Counted from the first letter of the stretch, positions 7,099 through 35,952 are shown. The stretch is DNA of 62,851 nt from Chloroflexota bacterium (GCA_013152435.1 JAADGJ010000060.1:1-62851), one strand, 5' to 3'. The notes: a model not told the origin generated them from the sequence alone. Program-made: numbers and translations.

Positions 7099-7152
7099 GC
7101 CCTCCATGTGCCGACTAGATGTTGTGGTTCGGCACAAAGTTGGAGGGCTTTT
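7099..7152 (+). terminator. Intrinsic terminator overlapping the integrase ribosome site
   Basis: GCCCTCCA (7099-7106) pairs with TGGAGGGC (7141-7148), stacked on an inner stem TGTGCCGA/TCGGCACA (7107-7114, 7129-7136), then TTTT. It would end the tRNA transcript. Its 3' arm contains GGAGGG, the Shine-Dalgarno of the integrase whose ATG is at 7155. Confidence 0.85.
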
Positions 7153-7154
7153 GC

Positions 7155-8054
7155 ATGCCTGGAGACATTCAGCTTATCCCACTCCCCACATGCCTCGACA
7201 TGTTCCTCCTCCACCAGGAGGCCAGCCATCACACCCGGCGCACCATCGAATTCTACCGATACAACCTCTCACGCTTCCTTGCCTTCCTGGAAGATCAAGG
7301 CGTCCAACACCCACAAGCAATAACCCCCCATCACATCCGTCAATTCCTGGTCACACTCGAGCGCAGAGGCCTCAAAGATACCACCGTTCACAGCTTCGCC
7401 AGGCCGATTAAGACATTCCTCAACTTCCTGGTGTCGGAGGGCATCCTGGAAGCCAGCCCTATGCACAAAGTCTCCATGCCCAGGCTCGAGCAACGCATCC
7501 ATCCGCCGTTCAGCGAGGATGATATCCGGAAGCTGCTGGCTGCATGTGGCCAAGACTGGTATGGCTTAAGGGACAAAGCGATCATCCTCTGCCTGCTCGA
7601 CACAGGGCTGCGAGCAGCTGAGTTCGTGAATCTGAACGTTGGAGACATAGACGGTGATGGCACGATCACCGTACACGGTAAGGGGGGTAAGGATCGCTAC
7701 GTGCACGTCGGTGCACTGGCGAGAAAGGCGCTGGTGCGGTATCTGGCGACCCGAGGCCATCTGCTCCCACACGCCCCAATGTGGATTGGTCGCACAGGGA
7801 AGCGTCTCACCGTTAGCGGCCTGTTCCAGGCCATGAGGCGACGAGGCCGACAGGCGGGCGTCTGGCCTGTCGGCCCCCATCGCTTCCGGCGCACATTCGC
7901 CATTTGGGCGCTCAGGAACGGCATGGATGTGCATCACCTGCGAGCCATACTGGGCCATGCAGATCTGCAAATGGCCCAGCGGTATCTCGCCCTCGCAAAA
8001 GATGACCTTATAGAAGCACACCGACTGGCCAGCCCGGTTGACAACATGCGATAG
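7155..8054 (+). CDS. int: Phage integrase, tyrosine recombinase
   Basis: A 299-residue XerC/D-like recombinase expected to join attP with the tRNA-Gly attB. Residues 10-95 form the SAM-like core-binding domain; residues 115-295 form the catalytic domain with Arg153 (TGLRAAE), Lys176/Lys179 (GKGGKDR), His242-x-x-Arg245 (HRFR), His268 (LGHAD) and nucleophile Tyr277. The start at 7155 is preferred over 7119 because GGAGGG lies 7 nt upstream. It lies 79 nt from the left tRNA end, and its ribosome site sits in a terminator stem. No excisionase was recognised. Confidence 0.95.
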   Translation: MPGDIQLIPLPTCLDMFLLHQEASHHTRRTIEFYRYNLSRFLAFLEDQGVQHPQAITPHHIRQFLVTLERRGLKDTTVHSFARPIKTFLNFLVSEGILEASPMHKVSMPRLEQRIHPPFSEDDIRKLLAACGQDWYGLRDKAIILCLLDTGLRAAEFVNLNVGDIDGDGTITVHGKGGKDRYVHVGALARKALVRYLATRGHLLPHAPMWIGRTGKRLTVSGLFQAMRRRGRQAGVWPVGPHRFRRTFAIWALRNGMDVHHLRAILGHADLQMAQRYLALAKDDLIEAHRLASPVDNMR

Positions 8055-8071
8055 CGCTTGACGCTATCGCA
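8047..8071. promoter_or_regulatory. Inverted repeat covering the int stop and a -35 box
   Basis: TGCGATAGCG and CGCTATCGCA form a perfect 10-bp inverted repeat around CTTGA. It spans the integrase stop codon and the -35 hexamer of the following promoter, so it could be an operator. A core CGCTAT..CG resembles the CGCTATAGCG palindrome in the switch region. Confidence 0.55.
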
Positions 8072-8086
8072 CGTATGTGCTATGAT
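8058..8086 (+). promoter_or_regulatory. Promoter downstream of int
   Basis: TTGACG (8058-8063) and TATGAT (8081-8086) are 17 nt apart. It would transcribe a leader of about 138 nt ending at the terminator-like hairpin 8197-8226 and then the membrane-protein gene at 8231. Confidence 0.7.
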
Positions 8087-8196
8087 CGCACAAAAGCGGC
8101 GACCGCCGGTGCGCACACACCGACGGCCGCCTGACCTCCCGCTGTTGGGGCAGCGGCGAGGCCGGCGCCATCATAGCACAACACAGCCCTCATGCC

Positions 8197-8226
8197 AAAG
8201 CCCCCAGCGGTGAGACTGGGGGCTTT
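8197..8226 (+). terminator. Intrinsic terminator abutting the 8231 start codon
   Basis: AAAGCCCCCAG (8197-8207) pairs perfectly with CTGGGGGCTTT (8216-8226) around 8 nt. The hairpin ends four bases before the preferred ATG at 8231, and its 3' arm holds the GGGGG that would act as the ribosome site. Confidence 0.75.
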
Positions 8227-8230
8227 CCCT

Positions 8231-8950
8231 ATGCAACGCTACAAAACCATCCACCCCACACCCGGGGCCAACAACACAGATGGCACAGTCCTCATTGTGC
8301 CTCCCTTGACACGCGAGGCCTTCCGCCTGTTCGTGCCGCCAATTCTGATCGCCATCGGCCTGTGGGCCGGCGGATTCGCCTCCATCGCCACGGCCGTTCT
8401 AGTGCTACCGGCCTGGACTGTGCTCTACACGATCGGCTCTTCGCTCACCCTCTCACAGCTCGCCTATGCGCTCATGATGTATCGCCTGGAAGCCCAAAAA
8501 GAGCGCAATAGACACGAGGAAGCAATGGCCCAACTCAGCATCCAGAAGTCCGTCAGCATGGCACGGGCGCAGCTTGAGATTGAGCGACACGAGATCGCAG
8601 CCAAGGCGCTCACGGCATCGGCCACATCGCCGCTCGACGGCGGAACACTATGGGATATATCTGAGCAGGCTCTAATCGACGCTGTGCTCGACGCTTATCG
8701 TGTCGCTGGACCAGATGGCTACTTACCCAATGACAAAGAGTGTCCGTTCGGGCGCAGAGCCCTAGGCGGCCTGTACACAGAGATCCGCTACCGGCTGGCA
8801 AACCCGGGTGAGAAATTCGGCATCGCAGGATCGCCGCCGGTCGCCACATATGACAAGGGGTCAAAACGCTGGCATCTGAACCTCAAGGATTACCCCACAG
8901 CTGCTCAGGCACTACAGGCTCTCACCGGCAGACGCTGGCTGGCTCAGTAG
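8231..8950 (+). CDS. Predicted membrane protein with coiled coil, prophage
   Basis: A 239-residue protein of unknown family. Two hydrophobic helices (about residues 28-50 and 52-75) are followed by a charged helical or coiled-coil stretch (about 78-125) and a soluble C-terminal domain ending in an aromatic basic segment (KGSKRWHLNL). An earlier ATG at 8192 would put the terminator stem inside the coding region, so 8231 is preferred. It is the only gene rightward of int before the convergent late operon. It might act in superinfection exclusion or another lysogenic trait, but nothing in the sequence proves this. Confidence 0.65.
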   Translation: MQRYKTIHPTPGANNTDGTVLIVPPLTREAFRLFVPPILIAIGLWAGGFASIATAVLVLPAWTVLYTIGSSLTLSQLAYALMMYRLEAQKERNRHEEAMAQLSIQKSVSMARAQLEIERHEIAAKALTASATSPLDGGTLWDISEQALIDAVLDAYRVAGPDGYLPNDKECPFGRRALGGLYTEIRYRLANPGEKFGIAGSPPVATYDKGSKRWHLNLKDYPTAAQALQALTGRRWLAQ

Positions 8951-9004
8951 TCCCCTACTGACAGCTAACGACTCCCTGTTAATAGTTCACTACCACCCAT
9001 GGCC

Positions 9005-9041
9005 AGGGTGGTGGGGTGGCGCCACCACCACCCACCACCCT
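9005..9041. terminator. GC-rich hairpin between convergent genes
   Basis: AGGGTGGTGGG and CCCACCACCCT form the outer stem of a near-perfect palindrome in the gap between the rightward gene ending at 8950 and the leftward late operon ending at 9040. It probably terminates both directions, although no long T-tract follows. Confidence 0.6.
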
Positions 9042-9342
9042 ATTCACACCTCGTATTGAAGAACAACTGAACCACCCGGAAATCCTGCTCATTCACCTCA
9101 CAGTCCGGAACATTCGGCCACAGATCGGCTGCCGGATTGTATCTGGTATCCCCACACGTGCTGCCATACGCCATAGCAAGCGTACTGAAGTCCAGGATAT
9201 CTACCCTCGCGTCACCATTCACATCGCCAACACAACAAGCTACCGTTTTCTGCCCATCCTGGCCATCCTGCGCACTGGCAGCGAACCCCATCGCCAACAC
9301 AAGCACAAGAACCACCAGCAAAGAAACAAACTTCCACATCAT
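9040..9342 (-). CDS. Secreted protein with dockerin/EF-hand-like repeat
   Basis: A 100-residue protein. Residues 1-25 are a clear signal peptide (long Leu/Val core, cleavage near ASAQD). The mature part carries GDVNGDARVDILDFSTLA, a calcium-binding loop and helix as in type I dockerin repeats, followed by a degenerate second repeat (VPDCEVNEQDF). Three cysteines and a CC pair are present. The ATG overlaps the stop of the LuxR-type gene (ATGA) and follows AGGAGG. It is the last gene of the late operon, a usual place for lysogenic-conversion or lysis genes. The function is unknown; a cell-surface or extracellular role is inferred. Confidence 0.75.
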   Translation of the reverse strand: MMWKFVSLLVVLVLVLAMGFAASAQDGQDGQKTVACCVGDVNGDARVDILDFSTLAMAYGSTCGDTRYNPAADLWPNVPDCEVNEQDFRVVQLFFNTRCE

Positions 9343-9599
9343 GCACTCCTCCTGCTCATCACACCAGACAGCACAAGCAACTGACCAGCCTCCCGGGGTG
9401 TAATCGTACCATCAGCAACCATCATCAGCGCCAACTGCGGTCGACTTCCAGCCCCTGTTTTTCTGTACACAGCCGACATCGTGTTGTGTACTGTGCTGGC
9501 AGACACACCCAGACGCAGAGCAATCTCCAGATCGGTCAACCCGCACACGGCCAGAAGCGCAACCTCGAGCTCCCGTTCCGACAACAAATCGCCAACCAT
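9339..9599 (-). CDS. Small LuxR-type HTH protein
   Basis: An 86-residue protein consisting almost entirely of a GerE/LuxR DNA-binding domain: LLSERELEVALLAVCGLTDL begins the domain and the recognition helix is in VSASTVHNTMSAVYRKTG. No receiver or ligand domain is present. The start at 9599 follows the stop of the preceding gene by two bases, indicating coupling. Its place after the tail genes and before the secreted dockerin-like gene suggests it controls late or cargo expression, which is inference. Confidence 0.75.
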   Translation of the reverse strand: MVGDLLSERELEVALLAVCGLTDLEIALRLGVSASTVHNTMSAVYRKTGAGSRPQLALMMVADGTITPREAGQLLVLSGVMSRRSA

Positions 9600-9601
9600 C
9601 G

Positions 9602-9793
9602 TTAATCTATGGGCACAATCTCCACCCTTGGCTCTATCGTTCCCGGTCTCAGAATCACATATACTTCCATGCGGCATCGCTCCTCGTTCAACACCTCTTG
9701 GATCTTCTCCAGGCAACGCCGCGCCCGGGACTGCCTTTCTTGCTCCAACAGTGCTCTCGCCTCTTCAGGAGCAAGCGTGCCGTTCCTTCCCAT
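9602..9793 (-). CDS. Small helical protein of the late operon
   Basis: A 63-residue protein, unrecognised. It is mostly helical and charged (residues 8-45, rich in Glu and Arg), with a C-terminal beta-like segment (MEVYVILRPGTIEPRVEIV). AGGTGAG overlaps the stop of the tail-fibre gene and positions the ATG well. It sits between the tail tip/fibre gene and the LuxR-type gene, so it could be a fibre chaperone or an unrelated late gene. Confidence 0.65.
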   Translation of the reverse strand: MGRNGTLAPEEARALLEQERQSRARRCLEKIQEVLNEERCRMEVYVILRPGTIEPRVEIVPID

Positions 9794-9801
9794 CTCTCAC
9801 C

Positions 9802-12345
9802 TCACGGTTGCGTCGCTAGCGTCGTGACAGATCCATCGTCCCAAATGACGCACAATTGTGTCTTGCCAGTACCATCATCACGTGCGAATAGTCGCAGTGC
9901 ATCCGCTGGGGATGCAGATGGCGTCGTCATTTCCCTTAGCACGAGATCGCCGTTAAGGTCAAATTTACCGGCTGGAGATGTAGTATCGGCACCGATATCT
10001 CCCGCAGATGTAATAGTCAATCGATCAGAGCCCAGGTTGAAATCGCGTATTTTCAGACTATCATTGTCAGCACCGTCTACGACAAAACCCCACTTCCGAG
10101 CATCATTTTCAATCCGGATTGATGGAGATTTATCAACTCCCGTCGTCGACACTGTGATATATGTTGAGTATGCGCTTGTGAATATTGCGTTTTGAGCCAA
10201 CCCTCCGCTATTAACCTCTAATATCACTGTTGGAGCTGTGTTTATTCCAACTCTACCGGCCGAATCAATCCGCACCCTCTCCGCCCCGGCCGTGTAGAAG
10301 AACATGGCGTCTGATGCATTGGAGTATTGAATCCGCCCCATGTCTGCATTGTCGGTATCACCAAATTTGTAAACGAGTGATCCGACGGTTGATCCGATGA
10401 ACTGGACAACCGCGCTACCGGCCGTGTTGGTGATGAGCAAGACGCCGTTCGTTGTATCCAAACCAGCCGTTGGGGCCGTATAGCTCTTTGAGATGTGAGC
10501 TAGCATGACGGGCGATCCAATACCCACCCCCCATCTGCCGTTTGCATCTACAGCAGCCAATACGGTTCCCGCGCTATCCTGCCACTCCTGCAGATTCGCC
10601 GTCTGACTCGCAGCCCCTTTGACCGTGAGCGGCACGTCGGTCGCATCATTCGCTACAGCGAGCGATTGTCCGTATAGAGTAATGTTGCTGTCAACGCCAG
10701 AGTCACCAATTGCAAGCGAGATCCCGCTACTGCTCGCCGACGTTACATTGAGAATGTAATTTCCCTGAACTTGCCAGCTACCATTAACGCCCAGTTGGGC
10801 ATAGGTGGCACCTGTCGAGTCGAGCGTGCTCAGATAAATCGTGCCGGTATATGGGCTTGCCACGGGCTCCGCCTGGATATACAGCACGACCGTGTCAAAG
10901 AAGCGCTTCGCCTTCATGTAGGCCAGCACAGAGTTCGTGGAGTGCTCCACGAACTCCACGCCGTTCGCCTGCGCTGCACTGAACACCACCTGATAGCCCG
11001 TCTCTGACAGCGCTCGCACACCTCCAGCAGCCGGCGGCAAATCATAGGCCACACCGGCCCCGCCACCACCACCCGTCCCGCCAGCCCCGCCTGTACCGGC
11101 TCGCCCGGACACCACACCCGCCAGAACCTGCCCAATGCCGGGACTCCGGTCACCAAACCGTATCTCATACGCCAGGTTACCCTCAATCATCCGGGTGACC
11201 ACATCCGTAATCAAAAACGATCCGCTCACCCCGGCCACAGAGTTGACGATGCTCACGTACTGCCCCGGCTCCAGACCCTGCTCCAGCGTGACCAGCCGGC
11301 CGCTATACCGACTATCTGCATACTGCGCCAGCAGCGCATCCGCCAAAGCTTCCGCCTTCGTCTGGCTCGTAATCGTCTTATCCTCCACGATGTAGTCGAA
11401 CCAGCGCCCAAACTTCGTGTAACTCGACGAATCGCTCCGCTGCGCCGTCACATGCACATCGTACGTATACACCACCTCAATGTTGCTCGTCCCAGCCGCT
11501 GGTGCTGTCGCAAACCGCAACACCCCATCCACGTAATTCACATACACGTCGTATCCGGACGAATCCACAAAATCCGTCCCAACAGATTGCGCCGCGCCAT
11601 CCACCTCCACGCTCACCACCGACCGCACCGGCCGATTCGTGAGCCTGAACATCGTCGTCGTTCCATCACCGCTGAAACTCTCCGTAACCGGATCGCTTGC
11701 CCTGATCCCTCCTCGCACCGTGATCCGGTTGCGAATATCGCTGGCGTCCTCCTCGAACTGCCACGAATCCTCCAGATAACCAAACGTCGTCACATTGTCC
11801 GGGCTGTCGCTCAGCCCAAACGGAGCCGCCGTCGCCGACTCGCCGTGGTAGTGCACGTCCTTGTTCGGATCCACATACCACACATACCCAGTGAGATCGG
11901 CGATCTTCTGCATCGCCTCGTAGAGCGTGACGTTATTAAAGCTCACGCTCTCGATCGTGCCCGAGGACGCCACGCTCGTCGTCGTGAACCCCTCAGCCCC
12001 CAGATACGTGCTGATGAGATCCTGGATGATCGCCTGATCCGTTTGGTTCAGATAATGCTCGTCCACGAGCTTCGTGCGGAACAGTAGCGAATAATCCTCG
12101 CACTCCGCCACATAAATCGTCCCCGTGCCCGCCACGATATCCCGCTTCACACTGACAATGTACCCGGCGAACAACTTCGTTGTCCCATCCTGGATCACAA
12201 TCTCCTGCCACGCCGACGGCGTGAAGCCATAAAACTCCAGCCGGCACGAATCCGTAACCTCCCCCAGCGTCCGCCGGATCTCCAGGCTCTCATAAACCAC
12301 ATTCGCCGTGCGGTCGACACCACCAACCGTCACCGTCAACGCCAT
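9802..12345 (-). CDS. Tail tip (hub-like) and tail-fibre fusion protein
   Basis: An 847-residue protein downstream of the tape measure. Residues 1-400 resemble phage baseplate-hub or tail-tip proteins (early VGGVDRTANVVYESLEIRR, repeated beta strands, and a segment VTLYEAMQKIADLTGYVWYV). A Gly-rich linker follows near 415-440, and the rest has the beta-rich repeated style of receptor-binding fibres (EWQDSAGTVLAAVDANGRWG, AERVRIDSAGRVGINTAP). The C-terminal third is less GC-rich than its neighbours, consistent with exchange of host-range modules. In siphophages this position holds the tail-associated protein. Confidence 0.8.
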   Translation of the reverse strand: MALTVTVGGVDRTANVVYESLEIRRTLGEVTDSCRLEFYGFTPSAWQEIVIQDGTTKLFAGYIVSVKRDIVAGTGTIYVAECEDYSLLFRTKLVDEHYLNQTDQAIIQDLISTYLGAEGFTTTSVASSGTIESVSFNNVTLYEAMQKIADLTGYVWYVDPNKDVHYHGESATAAPFGLSDSPDNVTTFGYLEDSWQFEEDASDIRNRITVRGGIRASDPVTESFSGDGTTTMFRLTNRPVRSVVSVEVDGAAQSVGTDFVDSSGYDVYVNYVDGVLRFATAPAAGTSNIEVVYTYDVHVTAQRSDSSSYTKFGRWFDYIVEDKTITSQTKAEALADALLAQYADSRYSGRLVTLEQGLEPGQYVSIVNSVAGVSGSFLITDVVTRMIEGNLAYEIRFGDRSPGIGQVLAGVVSGRAGTGGAGGTGGGGGAGVAYDLPPAAGGVRALSETGYQVVFSAAQANGVEFVEHSTNSVLAYMKAKRFFDTVVLYIQAEPVASPYTGTIYLSTLDSTGATYAQLGVNGSWQVQGNYILNVTSASSSGISLAIGDSGVDSNITLYGQSLAVANDATDVPLTVKGAASQTANLQEWQDSAGTVLAAVDANGRWGVGIGSPVMLAHISKSYTAPTAGLDTTNGVLLITNTAGSAVVQFIGSTVGSLVYKFGDTDNADMGRIQYSNASDAMFFYTAGAERVRIDSAGRVGINTAPTVILEVNSGGLAQNAIFTSAYSTYITVSTTGVDKSPSIRIENDARKWGFVVDGADNDSLKIRDFNLGSDRLTITSAGDIGADTTSPAGKFDLNGDLVLREMTTPSASPADALRLFARDDGTGKTQLCVIWDDGSVTTLATQP

Positions 12346-12386
12346 CGCCTCGCGCTCCCCGCTACCTGCTCCCTGCTATCGGCGGC

Positions 12387-17552: not shown

Positions 17553-17556
17553 CAAA

Positions 17557-17919: not shown

Positions 17920-17933
17920 GTCACCTCCCGCCA

Positions 17934-23327: not shown

Positions 23328-23651
23328 TCACCTCATTCCTGCGATTCTAAGGATCGATTCGGGCGGGTCCTCCTTCAGCTCTCGCCTGTAGAGCCGAACC
23401 AGGGCCCGCGCCGCCTTCCGCCTCTGCTCCGGAGGTGCCTTCACACCCCCACGGGCGCCCGCCAACGCCGCCGCTGCCGCATGGACACCATTGCGGTTTA
23501 GCGTCCCATCCGGCTCCCGCACCGGCAACTTACACTGGCTCTTCGCCGTCGGCGAGCCATCATGCAAGTGAATCAGACACGCCCGGTGCCACTGCGCCAG
23601 CGTATAGTCACTCTCCTGAAGCTGTCCCCACGGCTTATCGCTGATCGCCAT
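23328..23651 (-). CDS. Conserved phage head-region protein of unknown function
   Basis: A 107-residue protein starting MAISDKPWGQLQESDYTLAQ. It carries SQCKLPVREPDGTLNRNGVH followed by an Ala-rich helix and EQRRKAARALVRLYRREL. This LPVREPDG...RNGVHAAAA pattern recurs in phage head-morphogenesis or protease-linked proteins, but I cannot name the role. The start at 23651 lies just after an intrinsic terminator (23670-23716) with GGGGTGG as ribosome site; longer in-frame starts would translate through that stem. Confidence 0.65.
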   Translation of the reverse strand: MAISDKPWGQLQESDYTLAQWHRACLIHLHDGSPTAKSQCKLPVREPDGTLNRNGVHAAAAALAGARGGVKAPPEQRRKAARALVRLYRRELKEDPPESILRIAGMR

Positions 23652-23669: not shown

Positions 23670-23716
23670 AAAAAGGCCAGCGCTTCCCGCCGGGCTGTCC
23701 CGGCGCAGCGCTGGCC
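23670..23716 (-). terminator. Intrinsic terminator just upstream of the 23651 gene
   Basis: GGCCAGCGCT/AGCGCTGGCC (outer 10 bp) encloses GCCGGG/CCCGGC, followed on the minus strand by TTTTTGCG. Only 18 nt separate the T-tract from the next ATG, so no promoter fits between. It lies inside the head operon, between the MuF-like gene and the scaffold. Confidence 0.88.
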
Positions 23717-23773
23717 CGCTGCGAGCCATAGTATCCACTTGTCAGCTAAATTATACCACAAATTCCGCTCAGA

Positions 23774-24868
23774 TCAACTACTGATTGCAGATCGCCACCG
23801 CTTTGCCTCACCCTCACCGATGATCTGCCGCAAACTACGAGCATACCGCATCGTCCCCCAGCGCGGATCCGACCGCCTGCCGACGAAATCCTCCAGCCGT
23901 ACCGTCCCCGCTCGCCAGGCCTCAAACGCCGCAGACCCCAAAATCCGTCGCTGCACATCCTCCGTCTGCTCGGCGAACCACTCTACGCCCGGGCGAACCT
24001 TCACCTGTGTCTCCGGGATCCCTCCCCAATCAACACCAAACTCCTCCCCCAGCTCACGCCAACCCTTCGTCACTGGCACAGGTGTACACCGACCGTTCGG
24101 GTGGTCATCCAGCGTCTCATCCAACCGATGAAACGTCCCATGCATCGCAATGCAGGCCGGGCACGTCCGTGGCCCCAACTCAGCATGCCAGACCCACCCC
24201 TTAAGGATCCTGGAATTGGCACGATAGCTCCGATGAGTTGCATACCGATACGCCCGCAACGTCTCCGTCCGTGCGATCCGTAGCGCCCTCGCCAGCCCCA
24301 TGCCAAATCGCTTTCGCACCAACCGAGCCGTCTGCTGGGGATTCATCCCCGTCGCCAACCCGGTGACCAGCGCATCCGCCCCCCCCTGCCCCACCTCCGC
24401 CCCCAACTCCATCAGCAGCTCCCGCAACGGCGAGCCGTCCTGCAGCGTGCCCACCATGCTGTAAATCGCCTCCTGCGGCAGCCGATCCCACCGCACAACC
24501 GCAGCCACCTGATCCGGCAACTGCATCAGCACCAACTGCTCCGCATGATCCTGCGCCGCCCGGATCGCCTCCTCCTGCTGCCTGCGGATCATCCCATCGG
24601 CGAACTCGGCGAAGCGCCGCAGCTCCGCCTCCACCTGAACCCGCAGCGACTCCAACCGCCGCTGCCGGAACAGCCACGCCGGGCTCACCTCCTCCCCGGC
24701 CTCCCTCGCCTCGGCGATCTGCCTCTGCAACGCATCCAGCCGGACCGAGACCGTGCGCCAGACCTCGCCATAGTATCGCACCATCTCCCCAGCCGCCCGC
24801 CGCTCGTTTTGCAACAACTCCCGCCGGAACCGGTTGACCGCCCGCTCCAGATCACTCATCCTCGCCAT
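23774..24868 (-). CDS. Phage head morphogenesis protein, SPP1 gp7/MuF-like
   Basis: A 364-residue protein. Residues 1-130 are helical and charged. The MuF domain (about 190-270) shows RIARTETLRAYRYATHRSY, then a metal-site pattern GPRTCPACIAMHGTFH ... HPNGRCTP. These minor capsid proteins bind the portal and enter the head. The gene is between portal and scaffold, as in SPP1. Two nearby in-frame ATGs (24868 and 24859) make the exact start uncertain; an octamer-like repeat (24866-24906) lies at the start. Confidence 0.9.
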   Translation of the reverse strand: MARMSDLERAVNRFRRELLQNERRAAGEMVRYYGEVWRTVSVRLDALQRQIAEAREAGEEVSPAWLFRQRRLESLRVQVEAELRRFAEFADGMIRRQQEEAIRAAQDHAEQLVLMQLPDQVAAVVRWDRLPQEAIYSMVGTLQDGSPLRELLMELGAEVGQGGADALVTGLATGMNPQQTARLVRKRFGMGLARALRIARTETLRAYRYATHRSYRANSRILKGWVWHAELGPRTCPACIAMHGTFHRLDETLDDHPNGRCTPVPVTKGWRELGEEFGVDWGGIPETQVKVRPGVEWFAEQTEDVQRRILGSAAFEAWRAGTVRLEDFVGRRSDPRWGTMRYARSLRQIIGEGEAKRWRSAISS

Positions 24869-26267: not shown

Positions 26268-27575
26268 TCAATCCCAAATACTCGGCGCATACTGCACCGC
26301 TCGCTGCGGTCCCGCCGCCCACAGCGCCAGCGCCAGGCTCATCACGCAGTCCGTCACCAGCGCCTTATCATCCCACTCATACGCCTGCAACTCGTCCACC
26401 AGCTCTCGGACAAATGGGAAACGCAGATACCGCCGCTCCAGCGCTACCTGCAACCCCGTGAGTAGATCCACCTTGCTGCGGCCAGTGAACGTGAACCCCT
26501 GCGCCACATCCCGCACCTCGTCCAGGATCGGCGCACCCACGCCCGTGGCGTCGATCAGCGAGACATGGCAGCTATAGCGCCGATGCACCTCCCGGATCCG
26601 CTTCGCCACCACCGGCCACGGCGCCCGCTGGAAGCGCTCGAAGTACACCAGCCTGTATGGCTTCTCCGTCGCGTCCAGCACGACACCCACCGTCCAGTCC
26701 GTCGTCTTCGCCAGGTCCCACCCGGCCACATAGCGCCTGTTCTTCTGCGGCTCAACCGGTAACTCCCAATCCGCCGCCTCATACGCCGCCTGAATGTCAT
26801 CCCACCGAAAGACCGCCGTATCATCGGCAACGTACTGCCCTTCGATCTCCCGCAGCCAGGCCGCCTCCGTCATGCGCTCCCGCAGCGAGCGCAGGTAGTC
26901 ATGATGGATGTTCGGATTCTCAAAAGAGCTCCCCTGCTGAGCGTAGACAGCTGGATCACCGTCTAGCCCGGCCCGCAGCTCACGATAGACCAACGCCCGC
27001 TTCGGCTTCGGCGTCGTCGTCAGCACAAGTTGGCCACCCACATCGGCCAGTGTCAAGCGGATCACCTCATCGATGATCCGATCGGGGATGTAATCCGCCT
27101 CGTCTGCGATCACCCGGTGAAACTTGTGGCCCCGGATATACACACCGCTCCTGGCCACCGTGCGCACCGTCACCATGCTCTTGTGCTTGAGCTGGACCGT
27201 CGGGAAAGGCGTCTCCCGCACCCGATCCACCAACTCGGCCAGCAGCGGCTGGTGATCGATAAACTCCCGCATCGTATCGAACACCAGCCGGGCCTGGTCC
27301 AACGTCACGCTCACGATGCACTGGCGGGTGCCCGGCCTGAAGACGGCGTAATACAGCGCCTGGACGGCCGCCACCTCGCTCTTCCCCCAGCGACGGCCGG
27401 TGACCAGGACATGCGTCGGCCGCTCCGGCGCCAGGAGCCAGCGGCGCTGCCCATCATGCGGCTCCCACCCCAGCCAGGCCCGTGCGAAAGCCACGGGGTC
27501 AGTCGTCCTCCGCACCGCCTCGATCAGCGAGTCTTTCCAGGACCTGCGCCAGCGCATCGCCAACGCTGTGCTCAT
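26268..27575 (-). CDS. terL: Terminase large subunit
   Basis: A 435-residue packaging motor. The N-terminal ATPase shows Walker A GRRWGKS (60-66) and Walker B ADEAD (157-161). The C-terminal RNase H-like nuclease has Asp287 in AGWDLAKT, Asp342 in LIDATGVG and Asp409 in LVTDCVMS. All catalytic acids seem present. It overlaps the small-subunit gene by 77 bases. A headful strategy is plausible from the SPP1-like context, but no pac site was identified. Confidence 0.95.
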   Translation of the reverse strand: MSTALAMRWRRSWKDSLIEAVRRTTDPVAFARAWLGWEPHDGQRRWLLAPERPTHVLVTGRRWGKSEVAAVQALYYAVFRPGTRQCIVSVTLDQARLVFDTMREFIDHQPLLAELVDRVRETPFPTVQLKHKSMVTVRTVARSGVYIRGHKFHRVIADEADYIPDRIIDEVIRLTLADVGGQLVLTTTPKPKRALVYRELRAGLDGDPAVYAQQGSSFENPNIHHDYLRSLRERMTEAAWLREIEGQYVADDTAVFRWDDIQAAYEAADWELPVEPQKNRRYVAGWDLAKTTDWTVGVVLDATEKPYRLVYFERFQRAPWPVVAKRIREVHRRYSCHVSLIDATGVGAPILDEVRDVAQGFTFTGRSKVDLLTGLQVALERRYLRFPFVRELVDELQAYEWDDKALVTDCVMSLALALWAAGPQRAVQYAPSIWD

Positions 27576-27897
27576 GCTCTACCCTATCCCTCTTCGCCCA
27601 GCGCTCGGGATAACGTCGTTCGAGGATCCATGCGGCCGCCTGCCACGTCCCCCCCCTGGCCTCTTTTTGGATCTGCTGCACCAACGAAGACTCAGCTTCT
27701 GCCTCTGCCTTTTTTAGAGCCTCCCAAAACTGTCGAAACTTACCGCTTCTGGCCCCCTCACCCCTACGCCGCCAGCGATAAAATGTTGATTCGCTAATAC
27801 CAGCCGCACGGGCGGCCACTTCATACGTCAACCCCTGCCGGACAAAGTTGCAGATTTTCTCCTGCACCTCCGGCGTCAACTTGGTTCGCCGTCCCAT
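27499..27897 (-). CDS. Terminase small subunit
   Basis: A 132-residue protein starting MGRRTKLTPEVQEKICNFVR. The N-terminal helix-turn-helix (LTYEVAARAAGISESTFYRW) resembles transposase or terminase-small DNA-binding modules and would recognise packaging DNA. The C-terminal half is helical (SSLVQQIQKEARGGTWQAAA, LERRYPERWAKRDRVE), as in ring-forming small terminases. Position before terL fits. The start among three close in-frame codons (27909, 27903, 27897) is chosen by spacing to GGGG. Confidence 0.88.
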   Translation of the reverse strand: MGRRTKLTPEVQEKICNFVRQGLTYEVAARAAGISESTFYRWRRRGEGARSGKFRQFWEALKKAEAEAESSLVQQIQKEARGGTWQAAAWILERRYPERWAKRDRVEHEHSVGDALAQVLERLADRGGAEDD

Positions 27898-28072
27898 GGC
27901 CATCCCCACTTACCCAATTCCACGTCCCACACCGCTCGCAGCGGCGCCACACCGGCAGCGACACCACCATGCGCAACTGGCCGTGCCTGACGATCAATGC
28001 GCCGCCGCCATCCGTCACCTCACCGAGCATCTTTTCACATCTCGCACACGTCCAGAAGCGTCGATGATGCAT
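27821..28072 (-). CDS. Small zinc-ribbon protein before terminase
   Basis: An 83-residue protein starting MHHRRFWTCARCEKMLGE. Two Cys pairs (CARC and RCERC) 30-odd residues apart form a zinc ribbon resembling Mu Com-like translational regulators. The C-terminal third overlaps the small-terminase gene in another frame. GGGGG 9 nt upstream supports ATG 28072, which itself follows a terminator hairpin. It could control terminase or late expression, but this is inference. Confidence 0.65.
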   Translation of the reverse strand: MHHRRFWTCARCEKMLGEVTDGGGALIVRHGQLRMVVSLPVWRRCERCGTWNWVSGDGHGTANQVDAGGAGENLQLCPAGVDV

Positions 28073-28089
28073 TGCGTCGATCCCCCAAC

Positions 28090-28128
28090 AAAAAGCGCCC
28101 ATCGCCGCATGGCGGCACGATGAGCGCT
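28090..28128 (-). terminator. Intrinsic terminator upstream of the zinc-ribbon gene
   Basis: On the minus strand GCGCT/AGCGC, CATCG/CGATG and GCGG/CCGC pairs stack into one hairpin ending in TTTTTG. It ends 17 nt before ATG 28072, at the border between early and packaging genes. Confidence 0.8.
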
Positions 28129-28176
28129 ACCTCGCCCGAGTCAGCTATACCATTTTCCTGACAGTATTATAGCACA

Positions 28177-28464: not shown

Positions 28465-28723
28465 CTGCACGCTCCAGGTGCTTCTTGCGCAGCCTACTCA
28501 TGCGTAGCTGTAGCTGCTCACGCAGGTCCATCCCAGGATAGCTGGCGATGGCGACCAAAGCGGCCTCGGCGTCGAAATACCAGGCTTCCAGATAGGACCG
28601 TGCCACCCACGCTGCCCTGGCAACATACCAACAAATGTCGTCTATGGTGTTCGGCACGTCCAGATAGCTGAAGTGGTGTACAAACTGGAGCTGGTAAACA
28701 GGCCCCAACGCCGTGATCAGCAT
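28445..28723 (-). CDS. Hypothetical early phage protein
   Basis: A 92-residue protein starting MLITALGPVYQLQFVHHFSY. It is helical with aromatic clusters (ICWYVARAAWVARSYLEAWY) and a basic C-terminus. The start at 28723 overlaps the upstream stop (TGATG), showing coupling. No family recognised. Confidence 0.65.
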   Translation of the reverse strand: MLITALGPVYQLQFVHHFSYLDVPNTIDDICWYVARAAWVARSYLEAWYFDAEAALVAIASYPGMDLREQLQLRMSRLRKKHLERADGIQHS

Positions 28724-28932
28724 CAGTGCACAATCTGCCAACTCGCCGAGGATATCGGCATCTCTGTCGTGGTTTTGCGCCGATGCTCAGGCCGATTGAG
28801 GCGCAACCAGGCATCGAGCGCCTCCCGTGCCTCGCAGTCGGCGTACCGCAGCGCATCCAGCATCTTTGGCGTGGGCCAGACGGCCCGCATCTCGTTGCGG
28901 AACCGCCACACCATGTCGAACAGGTCTTGCAT
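28723..28932 (-). CDS. Hypothetical early phage protein
   Basis: A 69-residue protein starting MQDLFDMVWRFRNEMRAVWP. A short helical protein with YADCEAREALDAWLRLNRPE in the middle. GGGGAGGAG fixes ATG 28932, which overlaps the upstream stop. Family unknown. Confidence 0.65.
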   Translation of the reverse strand: MQDLFDMVWRFRNEMRAVWPTPKMLDALRYADCEAREALDAWLRLNRPEHRRKTTTEMPISSASWQIVH

Positions 28933-29150
28933 CACTCCTCCCCGATTGAAAATGGCCGGTTGCCATGTGCCCGCTCGAATGCCCGCACGCACAGGGCGCA
29001 GACGTGGCGCTCGCTGGGTGGATCATCACCCGAGATGATAAAGCTCTCGGATCGTGAGAGATCCTTCCCGCACCATGTGCGCCCGCCGTCACCCCTCACG
29101 ATGTGCCACCAGAGCCTCTGTCTTCGTGGGCGGAAGTAGCGCATAGACAT
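28932..29150 (-). CDS. Small zinc-finger-like phage protein
   Basis: A 72-residue protein starting MSMRYFRPRRQRLWWHIVRG. It has TWCGKDL, then HVCALCVRAFERAH: one lone Cys plus a CxxC pair and His residues that could bind zinc. It overlaps the preceding gene by 62 bases in another frame; an alternative start is 29144. It ends exactly where the next gene begins. Function unknown. Confidence 0.6.
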   Translation of the reverse strand: MSMRYFRPRRQRLWWHIVRGDGGRTWCGKDLSRSESFIISGDDPPSERHVCALCVRAFERAHGNRPFSIGEE

Positions 29151-30161: not shown

Positions 30162-30204
30162 GTTTCAACCTCGCTATTCTTTGGTCTTCCCTCTCATGCT
30201 GCGC

Positions 30205-30399
30205 CTACGCCCCCTTACCGCCGCCCTTTGGATCCGGATTCTGCCCTGCCCGATTGCACGCTGGGCACGGATAGGCCAACCCAAACCTCGGGTCATGCAC
30301 ATCGTCTGTCAGGTACACATACCGCATGTCGTGGCAGATGAGGCACCGGTATCTCGGCCTCGTTGCCACGACCCTATCCTCACGAACCGTTGCGCCCAT
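30205..30399 (-). CDS. Small zinc-ribbon phage protein
   Basis: A 64-residue protein with CLICHDM and CPACN pairs about 24 residues apart, a zinc-ribbon arrangement, and a Gly/Lys-rich end. It overlaps the helicase-loader gene upstream by 20 bases. Start ATG 30399 has AGGA upstream. Probably a nucleic-acid-binding accessory factor. Confidence 0.65.
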   Translation of the reverse strand: MGATVREDRVVATRPRYRCLICHDMRYVYLTDDVHDPRFGLAYPCPACNRAGQNPDPKGGGKGA

Positions 30400-31811: not shown

Positions 31812-31834
31812 GTGCTCGCCTCAATGTGGATGTT

Positions 31835-31857
31835 GGGGGAGGCTTTGCGCCTCCCCC
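31835..31857 (-). terminator. Hairpin upstream of the replication gene
   Basis: GGGGGAGGC and GCCTCCCCC pair perfectly around 5 nt. No T-tract follows on the minus strand. It ends 24 nt before the initiator ATG at 31811 and may act as a processing or attenuation element. Confidence 0.5.
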
Positions 31858-31880
31858 GATGCCAAGCAGCCGCCAACACC

Positions 31881-32234
31881 TCAAACCACGATGCTGATCT
31901 TCGGCGGGACGTGTGTCTCCTTCACGAAAGCCAGGATCTCCGGATGGGCCTGGGCATACCCCATGAGCATCTTGTCGTTCCACGTCCTGCGGGTGTACCC
32001 AGAACGGTATCGGATCGTCGCCCATTCCGTCTTGACCGTCCCAGTAATCCCCTCAAGCTTCGCCTGATACTCTATCATGTGAGTCAGATCGTCCAGACGC
32101 TCCCGGTATGGGGCCTCGAGTTCAGCCAGTTGCTGATTCAGCTCATCGATAGCCCGTCTGATATCAGCCGTGGCTTCTTGCATCTCGTCATAGGTGCCAC
32201 GATATTCCCTCAGTAGGTCATGTAGCTTATCCAT
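31881..32234 (-). CDS. Coiled-coil phage protein next to Rad52-like gene
   Basis: A 117-residue protein. Residues 1-65 are a coiled coil (EEMQEATADIRRAIDELNQQ-like) and the C-terminal half is a compact domain (WATIRYRSGYTRRTWNDKML ... HVPPKISIVV). Similar small proteins accompany single-strand annealing proteins in many phages, sometimes called Gam-like or Gp157-like, but I cannot assign one. GAGGGG precedes the ATG. Confidence 0.65.
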   Translation of the reverse strand: MDKLHDLLREYRGTYDEMQEATADIRRAIDELNQQLAELEAPYRERLDDLTHMIEYQAKLEGITGTVKTEWATIRYRSGYTRRTWNDKMLMGYAQAHPEILAFVKETHVPPKISIVV

Positions 32235-32250
32235 GGCTGTCCCCTCGCAC

Positions 32251-33132
32251 CTACCCTAACGGCAGCTCCTGCTGCCCCATGCGCTCCTGCTCTGCCCGAA
32301 TCAGCTCAGCCATTTGATCGGCGGCCTCAGGACGGATCACGTAGTCGTTCGTGTCCGGGTCCTTCCCGGCGATCAGCCAATCGAGAACCGCCCGTGCCTC
32401 ACCCCAGGTGAGTTCCTTCGTGGAGGCCTTGCCGAACACCACCCGCAGGAACGTGTGCCGGCCCTCGTCCTTCCACTCCGTCGCCTCGGCCAACTTCCCA
32501 GCGACCAGGCCGATCTGCGCCTGCGTGGCCGGCTGCTGCTTGCCGTTGGCCGCTTTCTTTCGCAGCTCAACCACCCACGCCGGCTCACTCACCTTGCCGT
32601 TCCCGCCATACAGATCATCGATGTGCTGCTTGTCTGTCTTGCCCTCTCTAGCGGCCCGATTCCCCATCACGGCTCGCTCTACCGTGATATCGTTCAGCCC
32701 CAGACCGAGAGCCGGTCCCAGTGTGCTGGCCGCCCCCTTGATGGCATCCGTGATGGCGCCCTCAATGGCCATCCGCACCTGGTTGATCCCGGCCGTCTCG
32801 ATCTTGCCCTGGATCGGCACCATCCCCACGGCCGGACGCCTGATGCTGATCCCGTTGGCGAAGTCGAACCAGACGTTGAGTTCGCAGTAATAGAACGCCG
32901 CCTTGCCGATCTGTACCAACTCCGGCCATCTCGTGATCTCGTACCCCCATCCGGCGGGTCCGAAGATCGTGTTGAGCTTATGCTTGACCATCTCGCCGGA
33001 GATGTATGGGGCGTCGACGAATTGATCGGGCTGCTTGATCTCACGCACATCGGGCCATTTTGCCAGCGCCCGGACCTGCTCCTCATACGTGGTCAGGTGT
33101 GGCACCTTTCCTTGCATTTTCCGCATATCCAT
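32251..33132 (-). CDS. Rad52-like single-strand annealing protein
   Basis: A 293-residue protein. Residues 40-170 carry Rad52/22-type features: LNTIFGPAGWGYEITRW, a central strand region and TDAIKGAASTLGPALGLGL. A C-terminal helical domain (about 205-260) is common to phage recombinases. It would anneal complementary strands in phage recombination and replication. The start follows AGGA and a 15-bp perfect hairpin upstream (33165-33201). Confidence 0.8.
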   Translation of the reverse strand: MDMRKMQGKVPHLTTYEEQVRALAKWPDVREIKQPDQFVDAPYISGEMVKHKLNTIFGPAGWGYEITRWPELVQIGKAAFYYCELNVWFDFANGISIRRPAVGMVPIQGKIETAGINQVRMAIEGAITDAIKGAASTLGPALGLGLNDITVERAVMGNRAAREGKTDKQHIDDLYGGNGKVSEPAWVVELRKKAANGKQQPATQAQIGLVAGKLAEATEWKDEGRHTFLRVVFGKASTKELTWGEARAVLDWLIAGKDPDTNDYVIRPEAADQMAELIRAEQERMGQQELPLG

Positions 33133-33164
33133 GGTATCCTCCGCATGGACGTGTTCTGGTTTTG

Positions 33165-33201
33165 GAGGGCGCTCGCGAGTGTCGGGCTCGCGAGCGCCCT
33201 C
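33165..33201 (-). terminator. 15-bp perfect hairpin upstream of the Rad52-like gene
   Basis: GAGGGCGCTCGCGAG pairs perfectly with CTCGCGAGCGCCCTC around 7 nt, between two early genes. On the minus strand it is followed by CAAAACC, without T-tract, so it is more likely a processing, pausing or protein-binding structure than a simple terminator. Confidence 0.65.
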
Positions 33202-33206
33202 GCCGT

Positions 33207-33818
33207 TTACCCCGCCACTCGCCGGATCACCCGGAGCAGCCGATGCCCGTTATGCCCATTGGCGCTCACGATCACCGGCTCGCTCGGAGACTCCAGCTTC
33301 GCCAGGCGCTGCTCCAGCTCGGCCAAGCGCTGGCGCAGGATGCGATTCTCTGCCCGCAGCACATCTACCTTGTCCTGCAACGCCTGCACGTCCTGGGCGA
33401 TCTCGCTGCTCAGCGCATCGATCTCCTTGCCCATCTCGTCGAACCGCCGACGAAGCCGACCGTGAACGTCCACGATGGCGATGTGGTGGTTGGCGAACTG
33501 CTCGGCGATCACACACACCACTGCTCCCCACTGCGCCTCCACGTCCTCAGCTATGGCGACCAGGCGATCCAGGTAATCGTTGAACTCATCGATGTCCTTG
33601 TACCCAGACTCCTTCCCACCGGCTAGTGTGATCTCAGCGCTGTTGAGGCGTGCACGATGATCGCCATCTAGCCAGATGCTGCCGTCTTTCCACGGCCGGC
33701 CTTTGTGATCAGCCATCTGGGCTACGACACGGGCGATCAGCACGTTGTCGAATGTGAGTGTCGCTTTGGCGAAAAATCCACCGCCGTTCGTCTCCCGAAT
33801 GTCCTTCTGAACCTTCAT
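33207..33818 (-). CDS. Hypothetical early phage protein with coiled coil
   Basis: A 203-residue protein starting MKVQKDIRETNGGGFFAKAT. The N-terminal half (about 1-85) is a mixed domain (WLDGDHRARLNSAEITLAGG), the middle an alpha-helical stretch and residues 130-180 a strong coiled coil (ALQDKVDVLRAENRILRQRL). GGAGG and a TGATG overlap with the upstream stop fix ATG 33818. No family recognised. Confidence 0.7.
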   Translation of the reverse strand: MKVQKDIRETNGGGFFAKATLTFDNVLIARVVAQMADHKGRPWKDGSIWLDGDHRARLNSAEITLAGGKESGYKDIDEFNDYLDRLVAIAEDVEAQWGAVVCVIAEQFANHHIAIVDVHGRLRRRFDEMGKEIDALSSEIAQDVQALQDKVDVLRAENRILRQRLAELEQRLAKLESPSEPVIVSANGHNGHRLLRVIRRVAG

Positions 33819-34054
33819 CACGCCACCTCCAACCGTCTGAACTGCGCAAGCTCCCGCTCCAGCTCCGAGATGTGATGCTGGATGCACTCGATGTGCTCAT
33901 GGACGTATGCGACAGTGTTGGAGTCGATGTCCGCCCGCTCCCGCCTGCTGCGGATATCCAGGAGCGTCTGCACCGCCCGGGCGCTCTTTAACATCCCCTC
34001 GGCATGCCTGAACGCATCCACCAGCTCATTGCGATATATCCCGTTCCCGCTCAT
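33818..34054 (-). CDS. Small helical early protein
   Basis: A 78-residue protein, all helical, with a C-terminal coiled coil (VHEHIECIQHHISELERELA). AAAGGAGG lies before the ATG. It is the third member of a tightly overlapping early cluster. Function unknown. Confidence 0.65.
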   Translation of the reverse strand: MSGNGIYRNELVDAFRHAEGMLKSARAVQTLLDIRSRRERADIDSNTVAYVHEHIECIQHHISELERELAQFRRLEVA

Positions 34055-34281
34055 GATTCCTCCTTTCTGCTCTTGCGGATCTTGTCCATCTCTTGCAGCG
34101 CATTGGCCTGCTCCCCCAGCTCGTAGGCCATCTGCGCCAGCAAGATCGCCATTCGCTCCACACCAGGCCGCTCGCTCAGGATGAGCCCGACGATGCGCCG
34201 CATTTTGTGGTTGGCCGCCATAGCTCGGGCCAGGTGCTGATTGTCCACATACCCGCCTGGGATCGGCTTATGCGTCATCAT
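34051..34281 (-). CDS. Small helical early protein
   Basis: A 76-residue protein (HLARAMAANHKMRRIVGLIL ... RMAILLAQMAYELGEQANAL). Its end overlaps the next gene start and its beginning overlaps the membrane gene, so translation is probably coupled. Function unknown. Confidence 0.6.
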   Translation of the reverse strand: MMTHKPIPGGYVDNQHLARAMAANHKMRRIVGLILSERPGVERMAILLAQMAYELGEQANALQEMDKIRKSRKEES

Positions 34282-34603
34282 CTAGAGCCTCGATCATCTC
34301 CCGAATGCTGAGAGACCGATCGATCCGCCGCTGGCGCAGCCACCGCCACACGCTGCCGATGATCATGGGCAACCCGCTGGCGATGAAACAGAGGCTGACC
34401 AGCAGGGCAGGGATCAGACCCACGATGAAGGCGGCGCCGATCAGCGTGACCATAACGCCGCCCACCACCAGAAAGGACGTGTACCCATGCTCCGGCACCT
34501 CACGCTCCAGATACTCCACCATGGCGTTGTATGCGATGCCGAATGCAGCCAGGCTCACACAGACGGCGATGATGCGCTCAACAGGGATGCTTATGGCGTC
34601 CAT
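34268..34603 (-). CDS. Small membrane protein of the early operon
   Basis: A 111-residue protein starting MDAISIPVERIIAVCVSLAA. Two or three hydrophobic helices (about 8-26, 42-65, 67-85) precede a basic-acidic cytoplasmic tail (RQRRIDRSLSIREMIEALDD). GGAGAGGG places the start at 34603. A superinfection-exclusion or holin-like role is possible, but nothing specific is recognised. Confidence 0.6.
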   Translation of the reverse strand: MDAISIPVERIIAVCVSLAAFGIAYNAMVEYLEREVPEHGYTSFLVVGGVMVTLIGAAFIVGLIPALLVSLCFIASGLPMIIGSVWRWLRQRRIDRSLSIREMIEALDDDA

Positions 34604-34703
34604 CCATTCCCTCTCCGGTTCCGGGCCATTTACCGGCCGATGCTTCTCGTATCTCCGTGCATAGCGTATGATGAACACAGGAGCGATTCATGAGGATCCC
34701 ACA

Positions 34704-35021
34704 TCAAAGGGCGCCGCCGGCCTCGGCGGCATCTCGCTCGGCGTCGTCGAGGATATCCTTGACACGCTGGCGATACGAGCCGATGTTAGCTGCTTGATAG
34801 GCCTGGTGCAGGAAGTCGATGAACTCTTGGCTAGGTACGGGCCGTTGTGAAAACAGACCTATCTGAGCAGCGACGGGTGGAGGGGCGTCCTTCGGGTCGA
34901 CAGCATCGATAGCGGCGTCGATGCCGATGTCCGTACCCCACCTTGTGCGCTTTCTGCGCCAGGCCCCCCGAGGGTCGGGCGGCCGCTTGCGGTGTGACGA
35001 TTGAGAGAGCGCAGATGGCAT
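34704..35021 (-). CDS. Hypothetical early protein
   Basis: A 105-residue protein with a basic N-terminus and a helical C-terminus (IDFLHQAYQAANIGSYRQRV, DILDDAERDAAEAGG). GGAGATAGTGGC gives a plausible ribosome site. No similarity recognised. Confidence 0.5.
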   Translation of the reverse strand: MPSALSQSSHRKRPPDPRGAWRRKRTRWGTDIGIDAAIDAVDPKDAPPPVAAQIGLFSQRPVPSQEFIDFLHQAYQAANIGSYRQRVKDILDDAERDAAEAGGAL

Positions 35022-35127
35022 GCCACTATCTCCTCTGTATCACCGGTGGCGGGGCCGCACGCATCCCCGCCGTTGTCATGAGTCGGGGCCCATGTTTTGT
35101 GCGCCCGTCGTGCGCCCGGGCTAAGGG

Positions 35128-35150
35128 CACGGGGCCGGATTCGAACCGGC
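35128..35150 (-). other. tRNA 3'-half-like sequence (T-arm and acceptor strand)
   Basis: On the minus strand GCCGG-TTCGAAT-CCGGC is a perfect T-arm with consensus loop, directly followed by CCCGTGCC, which looks like an acceptor strand. No matching 5' acceptor, D-arm or 7-nt anticodon loop was found, so this is not an intact tRNA. Confidence 0.4.
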
Positions 35151-35169
35151 GGCCTGCAAGAGCCCGGCC

Positions 35170-35373
35170 CTATGCAGGCCTACGAGCTTTCGGGTTGACG
35201 GGCCACCAATGACGGAAGTGGCGTAACGCCTTCTTCCGGCCGAGCTTGACGTAGACGAGACCGGCGCCGGGCACGTCAACGTAGGTACCGCCCCTACGTC
35301 GCTTCTTTACCCGTGCTCGTTCACGTTTCCCTGGCCGTCGTGCCGACTTTCTGCGATCACTTGGCTTGCCCAC
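35170..35373 (-). CDS. Small highly basic protein
   Basis: A 67-residue protein from GTG 35373 (GGGAGG 7 nt upstream). Residues 1-28 are extremely Arg/Lys-rich (RRKSARRPGKRERARVKKRR) and the rest holds VDVPGAGLVYVKLGRKKALR. It may bind nucleic acid. It runs up to the tRNA-half-like sequence. Coding status is moderately sure. Confidence 0.5.
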   Translation of the reverse strand: MGKPSDRRKSARRPGKRERARVKKRRRGGTYVDVPGAGLVYVKLGRKKALRHFRHWWPVNPKARRPA

Positions 35374-35652
35374 AGTCGGCCTCCCGTGGTTGGTTACCCA
35401 ACCCTACTCATCACGTGCACCCTGCGCTTCCCGTGCCATGTAGCGTAGCCGCAAAAGACAGGGCTGCTTCCAGGCTGCGATGACATCCCAAACTGATCGG
35501 CCATTCGCTCAAGAGGGTGGGGTTCCTCGCCTTCGGACTCACACGGAAGCAGCCCTCCCCTCTGCGGCTTGGGTCTTTGGCCGGGGGGCTCAACCCTTTC
35601 GGGGAGCCGCACCCCGGCCTACAAGGAGGGGTCCCACGGCGGGGCTGCCCCC
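35374..35652. other. Gene-poor GC-rich gap with hairpin
   Basis: About 280 bases with no convincing gene; short overlapping frames here look like chance. Near 35638-35664 GGCGGGGCTG and CAGCCCCGCC form a strong stem overlapping the end of the zinc-ribbon gene, which may end part of the leftward transcript. Confidence 0.45.
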
Positions 35653-35877
35653 TCAGCCCCGCCCGCTGGTGCCGACAGAATCAGCAGCAGCAGGCGAGGT
35701 TGATGCATCCTGCATCCTGTCCCATTCCTGCTCATGAATCCAGTACCCGCAGCACGTGCACTGGTGCATGTATGTCTCGAACGGGTCACCAGGTCGCCAT
35801 GTCACCTGGGCGGCCTGCACATGGCCGCACTTGGGACAGCGGATCGTCTCGACGGCTAGGACAATCTCTTCACACAT
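35653..35877 (-). CDS. Small zinc-ribbon protein next to cro
   Basis: A 74-residue protein starting MCEEIVLAVETIRCPKCGHV, with a second pair in CTCCGYW about 28 residues later, forming a zinc ribbon, and a Ser/Ala/Gly-rich tail. GAAGGAG precedes the ATG. It is the first gene after the Cro-like gene and just beyond a terminator (35901-35952), the place of the N-type antiterminator in lambda-like phages. An antitermination role is conjecture. Confidence 0.65.
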   Translation of the reverse strand: MCEEIVLAVETIRCPKCGHVQAAQVTWRPGDPFETYMHQCTCCGYWIHEQEWDRMQDASTSPAAADSVGTSGRG

Positions 35878-35900
35878 CACGCCGTCTCCTTCTGCACCAC

Positions 35901-35952
35901 AAAAACCGGCGCTCACGCAGCCCCATGCTCACGCACGGCCTGCTGAGCGCCG
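35901..35952 (-). terminator. Intrinsic terminator after the Cro-like gene
   Basis: CGGCGCTCA and TGAGCGCCG form a 9-bp outer stem with a partly paired interior, followed on the minus strand by TTTTTGTG. It overlaps the end of the cro-like gene and lies 23 nt before the zinc-ribbon ATG, like tR1 of lambda. Confidence 0.82.

Follow-up and report, generated by a model that had tools for sequence, protein, structure and literature searches.

The analyzed window is a 62,851-nucleotide (nt) stretch of DNA from a Chloroflexota bacterium (GCA_013152435.1 JAADGJ010000060.1:1-62851) that carries a prophage. At two places on the lytic (minus) strand of this prophage, one before the terminase genes (site B) and one within the head operon (site A), a promoter with a perfect TATAAT is followed immediately by an intrinsic-terminator-like hairpin and then by late genes, and related phages carry this arrangement at both positions too. 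With a probability of roughly 60%, A and B are poised late-gene switches, in which a strong promoter would be blocked by the terminator and released by antitermination. A preliminary description of positions 7099 to 35952 had proposed a phage-wide antitermination or attenuation scheme built on hairpins before start codons. As judged from the DNA, the hairpins are mostly real, but one reading for all of them is too broad. Such a scheme is well supported for A and B, where promoter, terminator and gene are kept together as a unit in divergent phages, and what survives is this more specific, proposed late switch.

Promoter-terminator modules at the two late sites

Promoters are reported here as consensus matches, and transcription starts, RNA 3' ends and read-through are predictions from the DNA. 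Terminators were searched on both strands by a strict scan that required a stem of -14 kcal/mol or lower followed by TTTT and accepted long, internally looped stems; it was used instead of an earlier simple short-loop scan, which gave no excess because it missed long two-part stems. The strict scan found five terminators in the prophage (7099-7148, 35952-35907, 28128-28094, 23717-23674 and a weak one at 17227-17204); 60 dinucleotide shuffles gave 0.43 on average. Four of the five were at -20 kcal/mol or lower, where 0.22 would be expected from the shuffles. Four of the five T-tract hairpins in the preliminary description are therefore predicted strong intrinsic terminators, beyond chance occurrence. 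As had been stated, they end shortly before start codons, with gaps of 2 nt (int, ATG at 7155), 18 nt (ATG at 23651), 17 nt (ATG at 28072) and 23 nt (ATG at 35877).

The promoter scan showed that, while no promoter fits between hairpin and ATG, as the preliminary description had noted, promoters that it had not reported lie just upstream of two of the hairpins. At site B, an extended -10 promoter (TGCTATAAT; 28166-28174, minus strand, with the -10 element at 28171-28166) has the same layout as in the relatives L019, L006, L190, L221, L188 and L281. It is followed by the site B terminator (28090-28128, minus strand; -24.3 kcal/mol plus TTTT), directly by a small zinc-ribbon (CxxC...CxxC) gene (27821-28072, minus strand), and by the genes of the small (27900-27499) and large (27575-26268) terminase subunits (together 26268-27900, minus strand), assigned with PHROGs. 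At site A, the promoter TTGATC-16-TATAAT, which has an extended -10 with TG (TTGATC-16-TGGTATAAT; 23750-23777, minus strand), is followed by the site A terminator (23670-23717, minus strand; -37.9 kcal/mol plus TTTT). Behind it lie gene A (23328-23651, minus strand), which encodes a 107-amino-acid head-operon protein without an assigned role and whose upstream regions were compared among relatives, and the scaffold gene (23323-22655, minus strand; PHROGs).

At both sites the terminator follows the extended -10 promoter at a distance of 32-38 nt, and a start codon comes 17-18 nt after the terminator; this is the lambdoid order of late promoter, immediate intrinsic terminator and late genes behind. 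Only three promoters on the lytic strand from 36.2 to 9.8 kb score 10 or higher with a perfect TATAAT (36177, 28171 and 23755), and each of the three is followed by one of three strong terminators. Sequences resembling a -10 element are also visible in the initial transcribed regions of both A and B in this prophage.

We then examined related phages, selected because their terminase or gene A proteins resemble those of this prophage and independently of the hairpins. Among named genomes, the nearest terminase belongs to phage L019, in a Chloroflexi metagenome-assembled genome, which makes a Chloroflexota host likely. Ten phage sequences including this prophage (324 kb, both strands) contained 13 promoter-terminator modules, all at A or B, while shuffles of the same DNA contained none in 12 rounds. 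In close relatives, a near-consensus promoter stands ahead of the site A terminator; the relatives' promoters are TTGACA-17-TAAAAT in L204 and L185, TTGACA-16-TATAAT in L190, TTGACA-17-TAGTAT in L127 and TTGACA-17-TAGCAT in L019. A second module precedes the terminase where the contig extends that far (L019, L190 with two in tandem, L188, L221 and L006). The sequence differs between the modules of one phage and between groups, whereas position and architecture are conserved. When 104 distinct regions upstream of gene A were compared, 21 had a terminator within 110 nt, and these came mostly from close relatives and one Firmicutes-like group.

The leader pattern alone (GCGCGGCTN{2,3}TCTGCCGCC) retrieved, among 2.9 million contigs, the otherwise unlinked contig L281, which also has the promoter-terminator-zinc-ribbon order. 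In 298 genomes of the class, the pattern gave 11 matches in 10 genomes, and the downstream-terminator filter retained only L185 as a module. A covariance model (R1) had strong matches among 249 genomes only in G133, with one module and one decayed copy; L346, from this same genome as L185, carries a decayed second copy of module A with gene A. Riverbug, a cultured Thermus phage with 32% identity in the terminase, shows a similar order at site A: an extended -10 element (TGCTATCCT) is followed by a hairpin rich in GC (-18.1), by TTTT and by a head protease gene.

Several variants of the layout were seen. L221 carries a tandem duplication of the complete site B promoter (about 620-760), with two TTGACT...TATACT copies ahead of one terminator. 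In L072, the site A module is present in two tandem copies (691 and 2793) with near-identical leaders, each followed by a copy of gene A. In eight Firmicutes-like contigs (L029, L034, L037, L090, L248, L249, L254 and L261), a conserved ATTTTTATGC...AAGGAGGTGA separates the site A terminator from gene A, and none of the promoter-like sequences there was convincing. Finally, the genome of a class-level relative contains an RNA recognition motif (RRM)-type RNA-binding protein gene (L321, around 1517, minus strand) that has the same kind of promoter-terminator leader (GCCGCCAGACC...GGTCTGGCGGC TTTTTTTT), which suggests autogenous attenuation of a host gene.

Competing hairpin in the leader RNA

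In most modules, a hairpin of 5-6 base pairs competes with the terminator for its 5' arm. At site A of this prophage, the competing hairpin CGCAGC-GGGCCAGC-GCTGCG (23704-23723, minus strand) overlaps the arm and folds at -9.4 kcal/mol (p=0.015); at site B, GGGCG-AGGTAG-CGCTC (28122-28137, minus strand) uses the arm and folds at -5.3 kcal/mol (p=0.16 alone). The competing energy averaged -6.7 kcal/mol over 20 modules; in a control set of 95 other terminators taken from this DNA, the average was -2.9 (p=1e-5). A competing hairpin of -5 kcal/mol or lower was present in 15 of the 20 modules (75%) and in 21% of the 95 other terminators (p=1e-5).

The sequences of the competing hairpins vary (CACGAC-GTCGTG in L221A and ACAGC-GCTGT in L205A, for example), with loops of TNNTCT or AGNNAG. 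In one group the leader is GCGCGGCTNNTCTGCCGCC...GGCGGCTTTT, in which segment 2 (GCCGCC) can pair either with the upstream segment 1 or with segment 3, the latter forming the terminator. In module L190B1 (GCGAC, GTCGC, GGCGAC), one change is matched by compensation in each of these two pairings; it is a single change, and most pairs are invariant. A combined two-helix count on alignment A1 was discarded because its inner helix was wrong. The predicted folds have the ANTAR/BglG-type property that the antiterminator hairpin and the terminator are mutually exclusive. Since the terminator is far more stable than the competing hairpin in every module, the default state would be "stop."

Proposed switch and alternative explanations

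In the proposed switch, a strong, apparently constitutive sigma70-type promoter would transcribe a leader of about 30-45 nt into the strong intrinsic terminator, with the zinc-ribbon and terminase genes just behind at B, and gene A, the scaffold gene and other head genes just behind at A. By default, transcription would end at the terminator to give a short RNA, and the late genes of the prophage would be off despite open-looking promoters. After induction, an antitermination event would let RNA polymerase pass. We infer that termination and regulated read-through take place, because late genes behind strong promoters with no recognised repressor site would poison the lysogen unless transcription stopped, and because promoter-terminator pairs at the head of late operons point to antitermination control. 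An equivalent read-through control of the early operon would operate at site C, after the cro-like gene. Two further parts of the proposal are more speculative: the signal may be recognised in the leader RNA, through a factor-stabilised hairpin, rather than at the promoter DNA, and a zinc-ribbon protein may take part.

Several observations weigh against these switches. PHROGs and Pfam searches, which weak or new families could escape, revealed no protein resembling Q, N, BglG or ANTAR in the genes that they covered. Because the modules are kin, the combined p-values for the competing hairpin are optimistic and overstate independence; this hairpin is weak (-0.5) in the L057/L044/L050 group and is not significant in L188B, L205A or site B of this prophage. 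The recurrence of hairpin positions in related phages, for which the preliminary description had called, was found for the A and B modules, but 83 of the 104 gene A upstream regions, including those of most distant relatives, have no terminator. In L191, the zinc-ribbon homologue has no terminator ahead of it.

A Q-like mechanism proper, in which a DNA-bound factor would load on polymerase at the promoter so that terminators are ignored, with the competing hairpins being incidental, is possible but doubtful. The position and the promoter-terminator logic are those of lambda pR'-tR', and AlpA of Pseudomonas serves two promoter-terminator loci in this manner (PMC7969949). However, no Q homologue was recognised among the genes scanned, and A and B of one phage share no sequence upstream of the -10 beyond chance (p=0.19-0.93 in the A-versus-B comparison), whereas segments common to the two leaders occur in L019 (CGCGCGGCT, p=0.005) and in this prophage (TAGCTGAC, p=0.015). 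This contrast, in which the numbers are small, tilts towards a signal at the RNA level over a DNA site. It is quite unlikely that the modules are instead small regulatory RNA genes of 60-100 nt, and that most transcription of the late genes reaches them from the early operon by long-range read-through. A small RNA gene does consist of a promoter plus a terminator, lambda pR' itself yields a stable short RNA, and the modules of L057, L044, L050 and L072 have an identical 28-nt leader and arm sequence. Yet between modules and groups only position and architecture are kept, the module always lies just before a start codon, and long transcripts from upstream would meet the terminator as well.

Distinctly improbable is the idea that the hairpins are plain insulators against stray transcription, from the host or the early operon, into capsid genes in the lysogen, with weak or chance promoters and no regulated read-through. 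In other elements, Tn916 among them, terminators serve as insulators (PMC11658703), and the eight Firmicutes-like contigs have the site A terminator without a convincing promoter. An insulator would be pointless for a promoter that precedes it, though, and the promoter-terminator pairs were absent from shuffles while the relatives' promoters are near consensus. A reading of every hairpin as an ordinary terminator of an operon or a tRNA, brought near start codons by tight phage gene packing, describes the hairpin at 7099-7152, after tRNA-Gly, and arguably that at 35952-35901, at the end of the cro-like gene. As an account of A and B it is highly improbable, for there a promoter stands between the upstream gene and the hairpin, and the layout is kept at just two places.

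The poised late switch can be compared with known systems. In lambdoid phages, pR'-tR' lies upstream of the terminase, as site B does. The lambdoid pR'-tR'/Q system (PMC6606751) likewise has a poised late promoter, a terminator directly downstream and late genes behind, and site B heads the terminase operon. Unlike that system, the phages here have two or three modules each, one of them within the head operon, a competing hairpin overlaps the terminator, neither a Q homologue nor a common element upstream of the -10 was found, and the host is not proteobacterial. With AlpA (PMC7969949) the modules share the presence of several promoter-terminator loci per genome, but AlpA uses a DNA site between -35 and -10, of which no common counterpart was found here, and no AlpA-like gene was recognised. 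As in ANTAR and BglG/SacY systems (PMC3369931), a small hairpin, often with a six-base loop, takes the 5' arm of the terminator and excludes it; here the loops are TNNTCT or AGNNAG rather than A1/G4, one hairpin was compared, and no cognate gene was recognised in the scans. HK022 put RNA (PMC9378689) likewise lies in a leader, close to a phage promoter and ahead of terminators, but put belongs to early operons and needs no phage protein, and no put-like pair of stem-loops was identified here.

The preliminary description had suggested a role for one of the small zinc-ribbon proteins, and the support for this is circumstantial. Directly after the B terminator, this prophage, L221, L190 (twice), L019, L006 and L281 encode a CxxC...CxxC protein some 70 amino acids long, which accounts for 7 of 8 zinc-ribbon homologues. 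The protein is a candidate factor by analogy with Mu Com (PMC6483171), a tiny CxxC...CxxC phage protein of similar size that binds an RNA hairpin adjoining an inhibitory structure. Com, however, acts on mom translation, and the zinc-ribbon here scores 13.5 bits against the Pfam Com family (PF10122), below the cut-off of 22.9. Its predicted fold is a moderate-confidence model whose PDB match was not significant, and in the class genomes the only homologue found was the window's own. L188 has no recognisable zinc-ribbon in 18 kb and also no strong competing hairpin, a single case. In L190 (3552-3845), a second promoter-terminator-zinc-ribbon unit encodes a zinc-ribbon lacking one cysteine (CERRG), probably a decaying duplicate.

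We consider it unlikely that these phages of Chloroflexota and relatives hold a new antitermination class, in which a zinc-ribbon RNA-binding protein encoded behind its own switch would stabilise the hairpin and disarm the terminase and head terminators, one factor opening all late modules with positive feedback. No published account of late-gene control in this phage group was found, and gene A and the zinc-ribbon matched none of 50,697 described phage records. The conserved switch at two places offers a concrete model for prophage silence and firing and a route to a possibly new antiterminator; if true, it would extend the lambda-type logic of a promoter that is always on and a terminator that decides well past the lambdoid phages.

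Other hairpins and the prophage setting

The prophage is bounded by a 79-bp tRNA-Gly(CCC) region that is present in identical form at 7001-7079 (attL, plus strand) and 40862-40940. The attL tRNA-Gly (7005-7078; ARAGORN) is driven by the host promoter TTGACA-16-TATAAT (6967-6994) in the promoter scan, and the hairpin at 7099-7152 (plus strand; -29.8 kcal/mol with TTTT) lies directly downstream of it, the place of a tRNA terminator. Since the host promoter is retained and a separate long hairpin (about 40955-41010) stands behind the attR tRNA, the 7099-7152 hairpin is predicted to be the replacement terminator of the integration-target tRNA, and an antitermination scheme is not supported there. 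The reported inclusion of a Shine-Dalgarno sequence in the 3' arm holds for this hairpin (GGAGGG) and for that at 8197-8226 (GGGGG). In the former it belongs to the integrase gene (int, Pfam Phage_integrase), and int may be kept low in the lysogen by this placement.

The hairpin at 8197-8226 (plus strand), directly 5' of the ATG at 8231, folds at -20.4 and failed the strict test: its T's lie within the stem, its tail is CCCTATG, and it was ruled out as a terminator for want of a U-tract. The two further stems, 31857-31835 (-21.0) and 33201-33165 (-32.6), also fold and lack a U-tract, as had been said of them, and neither is a terminator. A single scheme covering all hairpins was ruled out on these grounds, the 7099 hairpin belonging to the tRNA and those at 8197, 31835 and 33165 having no U-tract. 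An Rfam search returned two tRNAs only. Convergent promoters occur at 8058-8198, TTGACG-17-TATGAT on the plus strand (8058-8086) and TTGGCA-17-TATGAT on the minus strand (8198-8170); the latter runs into a hairpin with TTTTG at 8131-8098 and could give an antisense small RNA of ~70 nt.

The lytic genes on the minus strand run from the early promoter through the cro-like gene, replication genes and terminase to head and tail. The early promoter is PR-like (TTGACA-17-TATAAT, 36172-36200, minus strand; promoter scan) and precedes a Cro-like helix-turn-helix gene (35913-36152, minus strand), divergent from a CI-like repressor gene (36246-36752, plus strand); both were assigned by HTH_3 and PHROG repressor families. 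The site C terminator (35901-35952, minus strand; -34.6 kcal/mol plus TTTTT) overlaps the stop of the cro-like gene, the position of lambda tR1. Because no promoter scoring above 9 was found between this terminator and site B, the replication genes probably depend on read-through at the site C hairpin, and antitermination is plausible at this site, between the sole strong early promoter found and the replication genes. The gene downstream of site C had no relative in the viral contigs or 249 genomes.

Two minor features of the lytic region were noted. A MazG-type-like sequence (28518-28990, minus strand) appears, by eye from the translation, to be split over two frames near CGGCGCAAAACCACG, through a frameshift, an assembly error or the presence of two genes. 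Dispersed arrays of an 8-bp unit (CGCTGACT/CGCTCACT/CGCTGATT) occur at 17921, 23216, 25679 and 26233, some of them at gene junctions of the late operon.

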